Below, one piece after another: positions 7,198 to 12,779 of a DNA stretch of 64,000 nt (position 1 is the stretch's first letter; every line of letters starts with the position of its first letter). The stretch covers positions 1-64,000 of the forward strand of contig VFZE01000003.1 in assembly GCA_016871315.1 (NCBI GenBank), in the 5' to 3' direction. The stretch is from Acidimicrobiia bacterium. Its GTDB lineage: Bacteria; Acidobacteriota; Terriglobia; Bryobacterales; Bryobacteraceae. The notes beneath the pieces are model-generated. The model saw only the letters and a program-made list of their open reading frames with translations. It searched no databases and was not told the DNA's origin. A program made the position numbers and the translations under genes.

Positions 7198-8769
7198 TTA
7201 CATCGCCGGACGCGGCCGGGTCTCGCTGCCCGTCCACATCGGCTGTGTCAGAATCTCCGAGGTTGGCAGCCCCAGCACGCGCGGCCGGATCACCAGCAGC
7301 GCCTGTCCGCTTTCCCGGTTCCGCGTGTTCGACCGCAGCGCCGGCCCGATCACGGGAATCCGCGACAGCCCTGCCAGCCCAGTCACCGTGCGCGCCTCGG
7401 AATTACGCACCAGCCCCGCCAGCACCGCCCACTCCCCGTTTCGGATCCGCGCGGAGGTGTTGAATTTACGGTTGGCGATGATAGGGATCCCGTTCAATGC
7501 CTCTCCGGTCAGCACCTTGAACTCAGCCTCCACCGCCAGCGTCACCTCATCCATCGTGTGCACCTTCGGCGTGATCTTCAGCACTACGCCCAGATCCTCG
7601 AAGTTGAAGGTTGGTGGCGGCGTGAAGACCTCGCCCGGCCCCTGGATGGGACCAAAAAAGCCCGAACTGAGCACCGGGAACTTGTCCCCCACATGAAATG
7701 TAACCGGCGTCCCTTCGCTCGAACGCATCTCGGACTTCATCAGGGTACGCGCCGAAGTATCGGCGAACGTCGCGAACATTTCCGCGCTGGCGATCCCCAG
7801 TCCGAAAAACGACTTCCCCGCGCCGAACGTGGCGAAATTCGCAAAACCCTGCGGAAACGTCGGCGTCGAGTTCCAGATTTTGCTCAGCCACACCAACGGA
7901 AACGAGGTCTGCAGCCGCATCCCGATATCGAGCGCCGAATTCTCCGTCACCTCGATGAACTCCACCTCAATCGACACCTCCGCGCGGTGCGCCAGCAGCT
8001 GCTCAAACAGCGTCAGCGCCTGGCGCAGCTTCGACACGCGGTCCTTCATGAACACCAAACGCCTCTGGCTGTCGATCCCGAACTTCTGCAGCTCCATGAT
8101 CTGCTGCACCGCCCGCGCGAGCTCCTGCACTTCTTGCAGTGAGACCGGGTGCGGCAGTGGAACCGCCACCGCCATCGTCTCTTCAAACTCCTGCCGCTTC
8201 TGAATCGTGTCCCGCGCCGCCAGCGCGATCCGCCCGCTCACCGGAACCAGGAACGACGCCGTCGCCGCCTGCACCGCCAGCAGCGCTTCACCCGGTTCAG
8301 CCTGCTCCAACCGGAAGCGCAGGTTCGTCACAGGCTGGTAATCCTGGTCAAAAATCACCTCGATGCCCAGAGACTTCAGCGTCTTCTCCAGCACGTCGCG
8401 CGAGTCGCCGCTTTCGTTGTAGTCGCGTTTGCCCGGCGCCGGTTTCAGCTCGACCGGCGGATTGGCCCGCCGCGCCTCCGACAGGTCCTTATCGGTGACC
8501 TCGTCGCCCCAGTCATCCGGCCCCACCTCGGGCAGATCGCCGCCCGGCATCACCTTTGCCTCGGTCGCCGCCCTTGTCCGCAGGGCAAGGCTACGCGCCC
8601 ACGCGGCGCGATCCGCGGGATTCAGCGCAGCGGCTTGAGAATAAAGCAGATAAGCCCGAACCACGTCGCCTGACTTCTCCGCCTCCCGCGCATCCTGCTT
8701 CAGAAACGCCGGCTCCACTTGCCCCTGCAAGGCCACCGCAAGCATCAAAACCGGGACACACCACCGCAC
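7198..8769 (-). CDS. Secretin (type II/III secretion or type IV pilus family)
   Basis: An outer-membrane secretin-family protein of 523 residues from the chosen GTG at 8769, which begins at a signal peptide (VRWCVPVLMLAVALQGQ). Order: TPR-like helices (AYLLYSQAAALNPADRAAWA), a short N-domain (LKSLGIEVIFDQDYQPVTNL), then the conserved secretin core with VSIEVEFIEVTENSALDIG, the VTFHVGDKFPV strand and the C-terminal GLAGLSRIPVIGPALRS and QALLVIRPR. The ATG at 8883 would overlap the divergent ATPase gene. No other pilus or type II genes lie in the window, so the system it serves is unknown; it is divergent from the AAA+/radical SAM/ATP-grasp genes 85 bases away and may share regulation with them. 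Confidence 0.8.
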   Translation of the reverse strand: MRWCVPVLMLAVALQGQVEPAFLKQDAREAEKSGDVVRAYLLYSQAAALNPADRAAWARSLALRTRAATEAKVMPGGDLPEVGPDDWGDEVTDKDLSEARRANPPVELKPAPGKRDYNESGDSRDVLEKTLKSLGIEVIFDQDYQPVTNLRFRLEQAEPGEALLAVQAATASFLVPVSGRIALAARDTIQKRQEFEETMAVAVPLPHPVSLQEVQELARAVQQIMELQKFGIDSQRRLVFMKDRVSKLRQALTLFEQLLAHRAEVSIEVEFIEVTENSALDIGMRLQTSFPLVWLSKIWNSTPTFPQGFANFATFGAGKSFFGLGIASAEMFATFADTSARTLMKSEMRSSEGTPVTFHVGDKFPVLSSGFFGPIQGPGEVFTPPPTFNFEDLGVVLKITPKVHTMDEVTLAVEAEFKVLTGEALNGIPIIANRKFNTSARIRNGEWAVLAGLVRNSEARTVTGLAGLSRIPVIGPALRSNTRNRESGQALLVIRPRVLGLPTSEILTQPMWTGSETRPRPAM

Positions 8770-8854
8770 ATAACAATGACGCCAGCCTGCCGCCTGCCGT
8801 GCAGTAAACCTTTCCCCCGCTTCCGCCGATAAAAGGGCGAGGCACTCTGTCCAC

Positions 8855-10126
8855 ATGGCTTTGATCGCTGGCGTCCGCACCAACTTCGCACCACCGGTTC
8901 CCCAGAATTATCAAGAGCTTGGCATCCCTGAATCGCTCGTGCTTGACCTTGTCCTGCGCCGCCTGCTCCTGGAAGGCTTCTCCAGCCTCCAATCGCTATC
9001 CCGGTCCCTGAAGATCTCTATTCCCATCATCGACACCGCTTTCCGCCACCTCCGCGCCCAGCAGCTGGTGGAGGTCAAGGGCATGATCGGCAACGACTAC
9101 ACCTTCATCCTTTCCCAGGCCGGAAAGAACCTCGCCTCGGACCGTTTTCAGATTTCGCAATATGCCGGCGCCGCCCCCGTTTCCCTCAAGGATTACGCCG
9201 CCGCCACGCGCGCCCAAACGGCCAAGATCACGATTGACCGCAAAACCCTGCGCTCGGCCTTCTCCGACCTGGTCGTTACGGACCGTATGCTTGATTCCCT
9301 CGGCCCGGCGCTTATCTCGCAAAGCTCCATCTTCCTGTACGGCCCTTCCGGCAACGGAAAAACCAGCATCGCCGAGCGCATGCTGCGCGTCTACCAGGAC
9401 GCCGTGCTCATTCCGTTCGCCGTGGAAGTCGACAACCAGATCATCAGCTTGTACGACCCCGTTGTGCACCAGAAGCTGGAATTGGAAGACCCGGACATCG
9501 ATCCCCGCTGGATCCTCTGCCGCCGGCCCTGCATCGTCGTCGGCGGCGAGCTGGTTCCCAGCATGCTGGAGCTGCGGCTGGATGACGCCAGCGGCATCTA
9601 CGCGGCCCCCATCCAGATGAAGAGCAACAACGGCATCTTCATCATTGACGACTTCGGCCGCCAGCTGATGTCCCCGCGCGACCTGCTCAACCGCTGGATC
9701 GTGCCGCTGGACCGACGGGTCGACTATCTCACTCTCCGCTACGGCGTCAAATTCCAAATCCCGTTCGAGCTGATGGTGGTCTTTTCCACCAACCTCGACC
9801 CGCGGGACCTTGCTGATGAAGCCTTCCTCCGCCGTATCCATAACAAGATCCTCGTTGAACCGGTCGATCCGCAAACCTTTGACCAAATCTTTCAGCGCGT
9901 CGTCTCGGCCAAGCGCGTCCCGCACGAGCCCGACAGCGCGGAATACCTCCGCCGCCTTTGTCTCAAGGATGGCCGCGACGAGCTGCGCGCTTGTTATCCG
10001 CTGGACATCTGCAACATCCTGGTCTCGATCAGCGAGTATGAACGCCGGCCCGTCGAGATGTCCCGCACCGACCTGGAGCGCGCCGTCGACCTATACTTCG
10101 CCAAGAGCGAAGCGCTGCCGCAATAG
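8855..10126 (+). CDS. AAA+ ATPase with N-terminal winged helix
   Basis: A 423-residue cytoplasmic ATPase. Residues about 25-95 look like a winged helix (VLRRLLLEGFSSLQSLSRSL, HLRAQQLVEVKG). Walker A is GPSGNGKT at 163-170, Walker B IFIIDDFG at 261-268, and RRIHNK is in the sensor/arginine-finger region; the family is a MoxR/YifB-like predicted ATPase seen in several soil phyla. It begins 85 bases from the divergent secretin and is followed after 36 bases by the radical SAM gene, so it is probably first in an operon with the radical SAM and ATP-grasp genes. What it remodels is unknown. Confidence 0.75.
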   Translation: MALIAGVRTNFAPPVPQNYQELGIPESLVLDLVLRRLLLEGFSSLQSLSRSLKISIPIIDTAFRHLRAQQLVEVKGMIGNDYTFILSQAGKNLASDRFQISQYAGAAPVSLKDYAAATRAQTAKITIDRKTLRSAFSDLVVTDRMLDSLGPALISQSSIFLYGPSGNGKTSIAERMLRVYQDAVLIPFAVEVDNQIISLYDPVVHQKLELEDPDIDPRWILCRRPCIVVGGELVPSMLELRLDDASGIYAAPIQMKSNNGIFIIDDFGRQLMSPRDLLNRWIVPLDRRVDYLTLRYGVKFQIPFELMVVFSTNLDPRDLADEAFLRRIHNKILVEPVDPQTFDQIFQRVVSAKRVPHEPDSAEYLRRLCLKDGRDELRACYPLDICNILVSISEYERRPVEMSRTDLERAVDLYFAKSEALPQ

Positions 10127-10162: not shown

Positions 10163-11521
10163 TTGCGGGTCCTTCTGATCTCCACCTATGAGCTTGGCCG
10201 CCAGCCGTTCGGCCTTGCCTCACCGGCTGCCTGCATCGGCAAGGACGGCCACGACGTCCAATGCGTGGACACCTCCCGCACTCCGCTGACAGCGGAACTC
10301 ATCCGCAACGCCCGGCTCATCGCCTTTTACCTGCCCATGCACACGGCCACGCGCCTGGCTGCCCCGCTCATTCAGGCCGCCCGGCGCATCAATCCTGATG
10401 CGCACCTGTGCGGATACGGCCTCTACGCACCTCTCAATGCCGCCTATCTCCGCGGTCTTGGCCTGGAAACCCTCATCGGCGGCGAATTCGAGGAAAGCCT
10501 CCGCCGCCTTGCCTCCGCAAGCCCTGTCCCGGCGGACCTCGTCAGCCTTGACCGTATCCCGTTCTCCGTGCCCGACCGCAGCCATCTGCCCCCGCTTGGC
10601 GGCTACGCCAAACTCATCCACGGCGCCGGCGAACGCGTGACCGGCTACACGGAAGCCAGCCGTGGCTGCAAGCATCTCTGCCGCCACTGCCCCGTCGTGC
10701 CTGTGTATCAGGGCGCCTTCCGCATCGTTCCCGCCGAAATCGTGCTCGCCGACATTGCAAACCAAGCCGCCGCCGGAGCCCGGCACATCACGTTCGGCGA
10801 CCCCGACTTCTTCAACGGCCCCACTCACGCCATCCGCATCGTGGAAGAGCTTCACCGCCAACACCCTCACCTCACCTACGACGTGACCATCAAGGTCGAA
10901 CACCTGCTCCGCCACCGCGACCTGCTCCCCACTCTCCACTCCACCGGCTGCCTGCTGATCACCAGCGCCGCCGAATCGGTCGATGACGACATCCTCCTCC
11001 GCCTCAACAAGGGCCACACGCGCGCCGATTTTCTGGAAGCCGTGCGCCTGTGCCGCAGCGCCGGCCTCGCCCTTTCCCCCACCTTTATCCCCTTCACCCC
11101 TTGGACCACCTGGGATGGTTACCGCGATCTGCTCCACGTGATCGCCGATCACGATCTCATCGAAAACGTCGCTCCCATACAACTCGCCCTGCGCCTGCTC
11201 ATCACCAACGGCTCCCTACTGCTGGAGCTGCCGGAAATCGCCGCTATCGTCGAACCCTTCCAACACGAAGCGCTCCTCCACCGCTGGCGTCATCCCGATC
11301 CCTCCATCGACCAGCTTGCCGAACGCCTCATGCGCCTGGTCGACAACAGCCAGAAACAAGCCGAACCCCGCGCCCGCACCTTCGCGCGCATCTGGGAAGC
11401 GGCTCAGTGCGGGGTGTGGCCGGATATCCCCATCCTCCCCTCCCGCGCCACCATCCCCTATCTCAACGAACCCTGGTATTGTTGAGCCGAACCTTCCCAG
11501 GAGCAGGTTGCTCTTGTCTGA
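10163..11521 (+). CDS. B12-binding-type radical SAM selenoprotein with CUAEP tail
   Basis: A radical SAM enzyme of 452 residues when the in-frame TGA at 11483-11485 is read as selenocysteine (residue 441); 440 residues if it is a stop. It starts with TTG at 10163 (RVLLISTYELGRQPFG), the only start fitting the N-terminal Rossmann-like cobalamin-binding region. The 4Fe-4S motif is C169-x3-C173-x2-C176 (SRGCKHLCRHCP), followed by a TIM-barrel (HITFGDPDFFNGP, VEHLLRH, LLITSAAES). The frame reaches EPWYC, then TGA, then Ala-Glu-Pro-Ser-Gln-Glu and a second TGA at 11519-11521. Cys-TGA-Ala-Glu-Pro is the signature tail of the known CUAEP/CCAEP-tail radical SAM family, in which the second residue is Sec or Cys. 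The reaction is unknown. An AAA+ ATPase precedes it and an ATP-grasp ligase overlaps its tail. Confidence 0.85.
11483..11513 (+). promoter_or_regulatory. Candidate bacterial SECIS hairpin at the UGA codon
   Basis: The DNA from the TGA codon can fold into one hairpin: GAG (11484-11486) with CTC (11511-11513), C11488 with G11510, and AACCT (11490-11494) with AGGTT (11505-11509), leaving two single-base bulges and a 10-base loop (11495-11504). Bacterial SECIS elements are hairpins just 3' of the selenocysteine UGA that recruit SelB. The loop is somewhat closer to the UGA than in the E. coli fdhF element. The loop also contains AGGAG (11499-11503), the ribosome-binding site of the next gene. Confidence 0.55.
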
Positions 11522-12779
11522 TCGCGCCAACAAGCGGCTCCTGCTGGTCGCCTCCACCACCGGCTACCAGACCCGTGTCTTCGCCGATGCCGCCCGCCGC
11601 CTCAAACTAAATCTCACCCTCGCCACCGACCGGTGCCACATCCTCGACGACCCGTGGGGCGACCAGGCCATCCCCATCCGCTTTGAAGAGCCCGAAGCCT
11701 CGGCAAAAAAAATGGCCGCCCATGGCTTGGACGCCATCGCCGCCGTCGGCGACCGTCCCGCCCTCTTAGCCGCCCTTGCCGCCGAGCTGGCCGGAGTCCC
11801 CTTCCATCCCCCCTCCGCCGTCTCCGCCGCCTGCAGCAAGTTCGGCACCCGAACCCGGCTTGCCCAGGCCGGGCTCCCGGCGCCCTCCTTCTACCGCGTC
11901 CCGGTGGAAGAAGATCCCGCCTCCGCCGCCGCCAAGGCCGCCTATCCCTGCGTCCTCAAGCCGCTTGCCCTCTCCGCCAGCCGCGGCGTCATCCGCGCCG
12001 ACAACCCGCAGCAATTCCTTGATGCCTTCGCGCGAATCCGCACCATTCTCGACACCGCCGACATCCGGCGTCTCGCCGACGACGCCGACCGCTGGATCCA
12101 GGTGGAAACCTACATCCCCGGCCGCGAATTCGCCGTCGAAGCCCTCCTCGATCACGGCCGCCTCCAGCTGCTCGCCATCTTCGACAAGCCCGACCCGCTC
12201 GACGGCCCCTTCTTTGAAGAGACGCTCTACATCACTCCCTCCCGCGCCGAACCCGCGGTGCAAACCGCGCTCGTCGATTCCCTCCGCCGCGCCGTTGACG
12301 CTCTCGGCCTCCGCCATGGCCCCGTCCACGCCGAAATGCGCCATAACGAGCAAGGCGTCTGGGTGCTGGAAGCCGCGCCGCGCCCTATCGGCGGCCTCTG
12401 CGCCCGCGCGCTCCGTTTTCTCCCGGACATGCCGCTGGAGGAACTCATTCTCCGCCACGCTATCGGGGAAGATGTTTCCGCCGCCAGGCTCCGCCACGCC
12501 GCCTCCGGCGTCATGATGATTCCCATCCCCAAGCCCGGCGTCTATTCCGGCGTAACAGGTTTGGAAGCCGCGCGCCAGGTCCCCGGCATCGAGGAGGTGC
12601 TCATCACCGCCAAGCAGGGGCAGACTATCCAGCCGCTACCGGAAGCCTCCAGCTACCTCGGCTTCCTGTTTGCATCAGCCGCTGATCCGACGCAAGTGGA
12701 ACAAGCTTTGCGCCAGGCTCACGCCCTGCTCGAGTTCGACATCGCCTTGAAGCTTCCGCTCGCCGCCGCTTTTGAGTAA
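11514..12779 (+). CDS. ATP-grasp ligase (L-amino-acid-ligase-like)
   Basis: A 421-residue ATP-grasp enzyme. Residues 1-115 form the pre-ATP-grasp Rossmann region (KRLLLVASTTGYQTRVFADA), followed by the ATP-binding lysine in YPCVLKPLALSASRGV, the VETYIPGREFAVEAL segment, and the Mg/ATP site HAEMRHNEQGVWVLEAAPRP with the trailing IGG. The last ~100 residues resemble the LAL_C2 domain of L-amino-acid ligases (GVYSGVTGLEAARQVPGIEE). Such enzymes join carboxylates to amines through acyl phosphates. The start is TTG at 11514, 10 bases after AGGAG at 11499-11503; the first eight bases overlap the selenocysteine readthrough tail of the radical SAM gene. Substrates are unknown; joint action with the radical SAM enzyme on a peptide or amino acid is inferred from coupling. 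Confidence 0.82.
   Translation: MSDRANKRLLLVASTTGYQTRVFADAARRLKLNLTLATDRCHILDDPWGDQAIPIRFEEPEASAKKMAAHGLDAIAAVGDRPALLAALAAELAGVPFHPPSAVSAACSKFGTRTRLAQAGLPAPSFYRVPVEEDPASAAAKAAYPCVLKPLALSASRGVIRADNPQQFLDAFARIRTILDTADIRRLADDADRWIQVETYIPGREFAVEALLDHGRLQLLAIFDKPDPLDGPFFEETLYITPSRAEPAVQTALVDSLRRAVDALGLRHGPVHAEMRHNEQGVWVLEAAPRPIGGLCARALRFLPDMPLEELILRHAIGEDVSAARLRHAASGVMMIPIPKPGVYSGVTGLEAARQVPGIEEVLITAKQGQTIQPLPEASSYLGFLFASAADPTQVEQALRQAHALLEFDIALKLPLAAAFE

Follow-up and report, generated by a model that had tools for sequence, protein, structure and literature searches.

The radical SAM gene at positions 10163-11521 of the stretch analysed here (64,000 nucleotides in full, called the window below) almost certainly carries a UGA codon, at 11483-11485, that is read as selenocysteine (Sec), as judged by comparison with related genes. 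The enzyme and the ATP-grasp ligase encoded by the gene that overlaps its 3' end quite likely make up a two-gene pathway, and the Sec reading taken together with such a pathway is highly likely. The kind of enzyme is already known, since the protein matches an existing family above its cut-off. As far as the literature searched goes, the new elements are the evidence for the hairpin, the way in which the family has switched between Sec and Cys, and the near-obligate ligase, although the description that accompanies family NF040546 may mention some of them.

A radical SAM gene of the CUAEP-tail family with an in-frame UGA

The features of the locus are the following.

8855-10126, upstream of the radical SAM gene: MoxR-like ATPase gene (weak PF20030 match, below the cut-off)
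10163-11521, plus strand: predicted CUAEP-tail radical SAM selenoprotein gene, TTG start, stop TGA 11519-11521 (NF040546 and PF04055 matches)
11480-11494, plus strand: C-U-A-E-P tail motif, TGT TGA GCC GAA CCT
11483-11485, plus strand: UGA, predicted selenocysteine, codon 441 (from relatives, hairpin, association of the Sec form with selB, and selenocysteine machinery)
11498-11516, plus strand: SECIS-like hairpin CAGGAGCA-GGU-UGCUCUUG (from its fold, conserved pairs and a bias in synonymous codons)
11499-11503, plus strand: AGGAG, possible ribosome-binding site of the partner gene as judged from the sequence, in the 5' arm of the hairpin
11508-12779, plus strand: ATP-grasp ligase with an L-amino acid ligase C-terminal domain (PF13535, 110.5 bits; PF18603 LAL_C2, 68.8 bits; both over the cut-off)
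11519-11521, plus strand: predicted true stop TGA of the radical SAM gene, in frame

The predicted product has 452 amino acids with Sec at residue 441, and the 3' end of the gene reads EPWYC-UGA-AEPSQEQVALV-UGA, the tail codons being TGT (11480-11482), TGA (11483-11485) and GCC GAA CCT (11486-11494). The preliminary description of this DNA had given residue 441, which is correct when counted from the TTG start at 10163, and a second TGA 33 bases beyond the first, which proved exact too. It had also recognized in Cys-TGA-Ala-Glu-Pro the signature of the CUAEP/CCAEP-tail family, and the profile search agrees: the full protein with its tail scores 621.3 bits against NF040546 (cut-off 500), residues 3-450 aligning with positions 1-467 of the 468 in the profile, for a query that also carried the second TGA as its last residue. 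Without the tail the score falls to 600.7 bits, the tail thus contributing 20.6 bits. The match to NF040546, named "CUAEP/CCAEP-tail radical SAM (seleno)protein", covers the whole length and includes the same C-U-A-E-P tail, with no difference in kind; by this measure the gene is a member of a family that NCBIfam already labels as a selenoprotein family. The radical SAM domain itself is matched by PF04055 (48.1 bits), and the CX3CX2C motif corresponds to Cys169, Cys173 and Cys176, which do not vary in an alignment of 39 sequences, from the window and 38 of the 80 related loci described below. Neither CUAEP nor NF040546 occurs in the literature searched, a search with subscription papers mostly outside its scope, and neither was found in the accessible part of the text of a 2026 review (PMC13188914). 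The radical SAM selenoproteins treated in that part, TIGR04167 (GxxU) and TrsS (NF045646), also contain Sec but differ in family and motif.

A MoxR-type gene upstream, as in the window, was found in 5 of the 80 related loci, and in four of these five it lies beside a long match to the window gene at 7198-8883.

Conservation beyond the UGA

From the 528 relatives that a scan of GTDB genomes yielded, we kept the best 80. Because one of the six search patterns held the Cys version of the tail, this sample is not neutral with respect to Sec versus Cys. C-[U/C]-AEP is found in every one of these 80, the variable position being encoded by TGA in 64, TGC in 15 and TGT in one. The earlier statement that this position is Sec or Cys is thereby borne out (64 TGA and 16 Cys codons in the best 80 of 528), and homologues that end at the equivalent of EPWYC, which would have spoken for termination there, are absent among the kept relatives, AEP being present in every one. 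Across the 65 Sec genes (the window included), codons +1 to +3 after the UGA show synonymous variation only and always encode Ala-Glu-Pro. The Ala codon is GCG in 37, GCC in 24, GCT in three and GCA in one, and the Pro codon is CCC in 30, CCG in 16, CCA in 12 and CCT in seven. That AEP stays constant while third codon positions vary indicates that selection at the protein level extends past the UGA in Sec genes.

A SECIS-like hairpin behind the UGA

The hairpin begins 12 bases past the UGA, with its loop 20 bases past it, and the fold of the window sequence contains all six of the pairs that we counted. Taken alone, the window hairpin is of unremarkable stability (z -0.17 to -0.95 over four folds), and no Rfam family, SECIS included, reaches its gathering score anywhere in the window; the non-significant stability is the reason why we relied on comparison across relatives. 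In 63 full-length Sec genes a mean of 5.73 of the six pairs can form (six in 47 genes, five in 15 and four in one). When synonymous codons were permuted according to the usage of each gene, the mean was 3.80 pairs (sd 0.08), with none of 1000 runs exceeding 4.06; observed and shuffled sets alike could use either of two registers of the 3' arm. The 16 Cys genes have 3.25 pairs against 3.01 after shuffling (sd 0.19), which is near chance; five or six of the six pairs nonetheless persist in four of the 16, so that the hairpin has not been lost in every Cys line.

The excess of pairing arises because rare synonymous codons are chosen within the hairpin. In the Sec genes, GCT accounts for 41 of 53 Ala codons at +9 (8% in gene bodies), CTT for 36 of 44 Leu codons at +10 (9%) and TTG for 26 of 34 Leu codons at +8 (12%). 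Some pairs have changed on both sides; in the commoner register, for example, the fourth pair is A-T in 40 genes but G-C in three and C-G in two. By its position, its conservation and its weakening in Cys forms, the hairpin is a predicted SECIS element. SelB together with Sec-tRNA would bind it at 11498-11516 behind the UGA; the ribosome would then read through, add 11 more codons and halt at the second UGA. The product would be a full-length CUAEP-tail enzyme in which Cys440 and Sec441 stand side by side near the C-terminus.

Selenocysteine machinery and distribution of the family

The preliminary description had reasoned that the organism must possess a selenocysteine system encoded outside the window, and this is what the genome (6.25 Mb in 166 contigs, 98% complete) contains. 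All four components score above their curated cut-offs: selA 485.4 bits (cut-off 267.9) on contig C36, selB 382.2 bits (242.25) on C21, the tRNA-Sec gene selC 69.5 bits (47) on C86 and selD 353.1 bits (125) on C12. The window (C3, positions 1-64000) holds none of these best matches, and ARAGORN also calls selC as tRNA-SeC with anticodon tca. The SelD of this genome (locus L023, on C12) has an in-frame UGA of its own in the context AGUASK, that is, a UxxK motif, which the accessible part of PMC13188914 gives for selenophosphate synthetase; the selenophosphate synthetase is thus itself a predicted selenoprotein.

We then examined 299 genomes of the same class with completeness of at least 90%. 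The NF040546 family is present over its cut-off in 109 of them, with one TGA in 79, without TGA in 29 and split over contigs in one; the 29 were classed solely by absence of TGA, and genome G293 was counted as Sec, its Sec copy being accompanied by a partial one that lacks TGA. selB falls below its cut-off in 3 of the 79 Sec-form genomes, 6 of the 29 non-TGA genomes and 76 of the 190 genomes that lack the family over its cut-off. The corresponding Fisher P values, 7e-11 for Sec form versus no family and 0.011 for Sec form versus non-TGA form, overstate independence since the genomes are mutually related. In the Sec-form genomes the shortfall of selB probably reflects incomplete assembly: selA is over its cut-off in all four Sec genomes with selB below cut-off (the three above and the split-copy genome G220), and tRNA-Sec exceeds 60 bits in three of them, the fourth (G155) scoring 46.6 bits, just under the cut-off of 47. 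Where selB is below cut-off in non-TGA genomes, six in all, tRNA-Sec exceeds 60 bits only in G184.

Could the first UGA simply be an ordinary stop, the enzyme ending at Cys440 and AEP being untranslated or occasionally read? The public record of Thermomicrobium roseum described below is annotated in this way, and UGA does serve as an ordinary stop in the window, where 17 of 37 long frames (at least 300 codons, mechanically chosen) end in TGA. Yet 16 of the 80 kept relatives run through into AEP with a Cys codon, the three codons past the UGA vary only synonymously, pairing in the hairpin is conserved where Sec is encoded but on average close to random where Cys is, and Sec forms accompany selB. 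We rejected termination on the first three of these grounds and regard it as very improbable. Reassignment of UGA throughout the genome as an amino-acid codon would likewise show an in-frame TGA inside a conserved gene, but it has a negligible chance of being correct and was discarded, given the same TGA-terminated frames, the TGA that ends the radical SAM gene too, and the complete selenocysteine system.

Sec and Cys forms across the family

A quick tree was built from 81 copies, the Thermomicrobium copy and three ArsL-type proteins, with residues after Cys440 excluded. It needs eight changes between Sec and Cys, seven of them within the CUAEP family; well-supported branches alone force seven over the whole tree set. 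The window gene and its sister locus L026 retain Sec, and the adjoining clade in the tree consists of eight Cys members. The Thermomicrobium copy, basal and 45% identical, reads TGT TGA GCG GAG CCG and has a six-pair stem in the same place. With a basal copy that has Sec, AEP and the hairpin, Sec looks ancestral in the CUAEP family, with repeated change to Cys, as read off the quick tree.

The Thermomicrobium gene lies on the T. roseum plasmid NC_011961.1 (L106, 7366-7443), where the CUAEP/CCAEP-tail annotation ends at the UGA and GCG-GAG-CCG and the six-pair hairpin lie beyond the annotated end. The warning that a conventional annotation would drop the tail thus holds in one public record, which stopped at the same TGA, and at least one public annotation still cuts such a protein at the UGA. 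More broadly, with natural Sec and Cys versions and seven changes of state, the family offers a clean test bed for the use of selenocysteine, which also provides a hairpin that Sec forms conserve and that in Cys forms averages close to random expectation, as well as one almost constant partner gene.

The ATP-grasp partner gene

The likely start of the partner gene is TTG 11508 or TTG 11514, both inside the span of the hairpin; the only other candidate is TTG 11316, far inside the radical SAM gene, to which the open frame extends. At the sister locus L026 the sole TTG for the ligase stands at the corresponding point of the hairpin. In the window, translation of the ligase could be tied to selenocysteine read-through by way of a start within the hairpin. 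As a general trait of the family this arrangement was rejected. The start region of the ligase could be placed in 33 loci (25 of them Sec, the window included) by a search that reached 60 bases upstream of the UGA, and the nearest start falls at or before base 40 in only three of the 25 Sec loci.

In 48 of the 80 loci a relative of the ligase follows the enzyme gene on the same strand, some contigs ending too early to show one; its first aligned residue is mostly within 165 bases past the UGA, four lying farther. Across the 299 genomes, the ATP-grasp gene (counted at E 1e-60 or better) occurs in 112, the radical SAM gene in 109 and both in 108. The ligase is found without a radical SAM gene over the cut-off in four genomes (in one of which, G243, the radical SAM gene is split), and the reverse in one. 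In 84 of the 108 shared genomes the two genes are on the same contig, a few of them far apart. They are on different contigs in the other 24, so that the association reflects more than a shared neighbourhood. Among the listed neighbours of the T. roseum member there is no ATP-grasp gene.

No other gene accompanies the enzyme to a comparable extent. When the open frames around the 81 copies were clustered, the ligase appeared in 46 loci, YggX in 21 and all others in 16 or fewer; the 16-locus cluster is an aconitase-like gene, named by eye, as YggX is the one neighbour cluster whose representative was scanned with profiles. Around 20 further ligase loci (19 off the enzyme's contig and one solitary), no neighbour occurs in more than seven of the 20. 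Those seven lie where YggX was located on the other strand.

YggX (Fe(2+)-trafficking, PF04362) was weighed as a possible addition to the two-gene module. It is a close neighbour of the ligase in 50 of 68 ligase loci, convergently in 44 of the 50, and in none of the 33 examined loci without a ligase (101 loci examined, with gaps of up to 4.4 kb). Since it is present in 283 of the 299 genomes and missing from the window genome, we rejected module membership, and its proximity is read as an old gene order around a common gene.

Relationship to ArsL and possible chemistry

The nearest characterised family by sequence is ArsL. Its profile (NF040542) is the second best for the window protein, at 263.7 bits against a cut-off of 450, other families scoring 38.5 bits or less. 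Homology extends over query residues 1-385 or more, with 31-34% identity to 16 plasmid examples. All three ArsL-type proteins compared end in RCCLKC, a tail with no occurrence in the 15 papers examined for it, and its CC is placed against C-U of the window protein across a long gap, a match that rests on the cysteines themselves. Besides scoring below the ArsL cut-off, the window protein differs in having a longer C-terminal part and in lacking the third Cys of the tail.

An AlphaFold model of the enzyme is good overall (mean pLDDT 91.6) and weak at the tail, with block means of 53, 73, 67 and 55 from residue 421 on, so that any placement of the Cys-Sec pair relative to the iron-sulphur site would be of low confidence. 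The best of the 50 structural matches listed is AprD4 (Z 27.4, 395 residues, 3.5 A), and the list also includes OxsB and MgmA (Z 25.7 each) and TsrM (Z 24.3). These four share the fold of the model over 359-410 residues at Z 24-27 with 15-19% identity, a likeness of fold that shows no function. No ArsL structure is among the 50 matches listed, so the structural ranking cannot argue against ArsL.

From the near-obligate ligase partner and the kinship to ArsL, we infer a pathway in which an unusual amino acid is made and then ligated. The Cys-Sec pair would hold or reduce the acceptor of the radical reaction, and the enzyme would transfer to this acceptor a piece of SAM, perhaps 3-amino-3-carboxypropyl as in ArsL. 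The ATP-grasp ligase would then couple the resulting amino acid to another, the route yielding a small peptide or an unusual amino acid. Evidence against this proposal comes from the arsenic-gene search described below, which found no relatives, from the missing third tail Cys and from a fold common to radical SAM enzymes with several chemistries. That the CUAEP enzyme performs ArsL-type chemistry is a tentative proposal, more doubtful than the existence of the pathway. Should the kinship hold for the chemistry as well, small metabolites made by the pair would be indicated for roughly one third of the 299 genomes. The fullest version of the proposal is more speculative again and would, on balance, probably not hold in all its parts: a widespread two-gene route in the class of this genome, not encountered in the literature searched, to a small peptide with a novel type of amino acid, as a selenium version of ArsL chemistry, in which the carboxypropyl group of SAM would be moved to a metalloid or other soft element held on Cys-Sec and the ligase would make a dipeptide, and in which, in the lineage of the window, the hairpin would also bear the ligase start and so tie its translation to Sec supply.

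The strongest competitor accepts the Sec reading and assigns the enzyme a 5'-deoxyadenosyl radical chemistry, for instance that of an AprD4-like dehydratase, in which Cys-Sec gives electrons or a hydrogen atom. It has a somewhat better chance than ArsL-type chemistry and falls just short of an even one. AprD4 as top structural match among the 50 listed, ahead of OxsB, MgmA and TsrM, is in keeping with it, as are the many UxxC and CxxU motifs in the accessible part of a table in PMC13188914, the missing third Cys of RCCLKC and the absence of arsenic genes nearby. The sequence comparison argues the other way, ArsL being far ahead of every other characterised family, and the structural ranking is uninformative for want of an ArsL structure in the list.

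A less likely alternative, to which we give a low probability, is that Cys-Sec binds a toxic metalloid or metal and that the route serves detoxification or makes a metallophore rather than an antibiotic-like peptide. ArsL acts on arsenite, according to the accessible part of PMC8552651, and two of the three ArsL-type plasmid clusters examined carry an ATP-grasp gene. However, eight arsenic genes of the ArsL clusters have no relative in the 81 CUAEP loci or the window (E 1e-5), and the two ATP-grasp proteins of those clusters, which have the ATP-grasp domain with LAL_C2 below its cut-off, are only 22-24% identical to the window ligase. Returning to ArsL-type chemistry, the accessible part of another review (PMC12159101) cites later work for the radical transfer by ArsL.

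The two plasmid clusters with an ATP-grasp gene are those of Priestia megaterium (L107, 1483-2706) and Alicyclobacillus (L108, 436-1668), and both also hold a small carboxymuconolactone decarboxylase-like gene.
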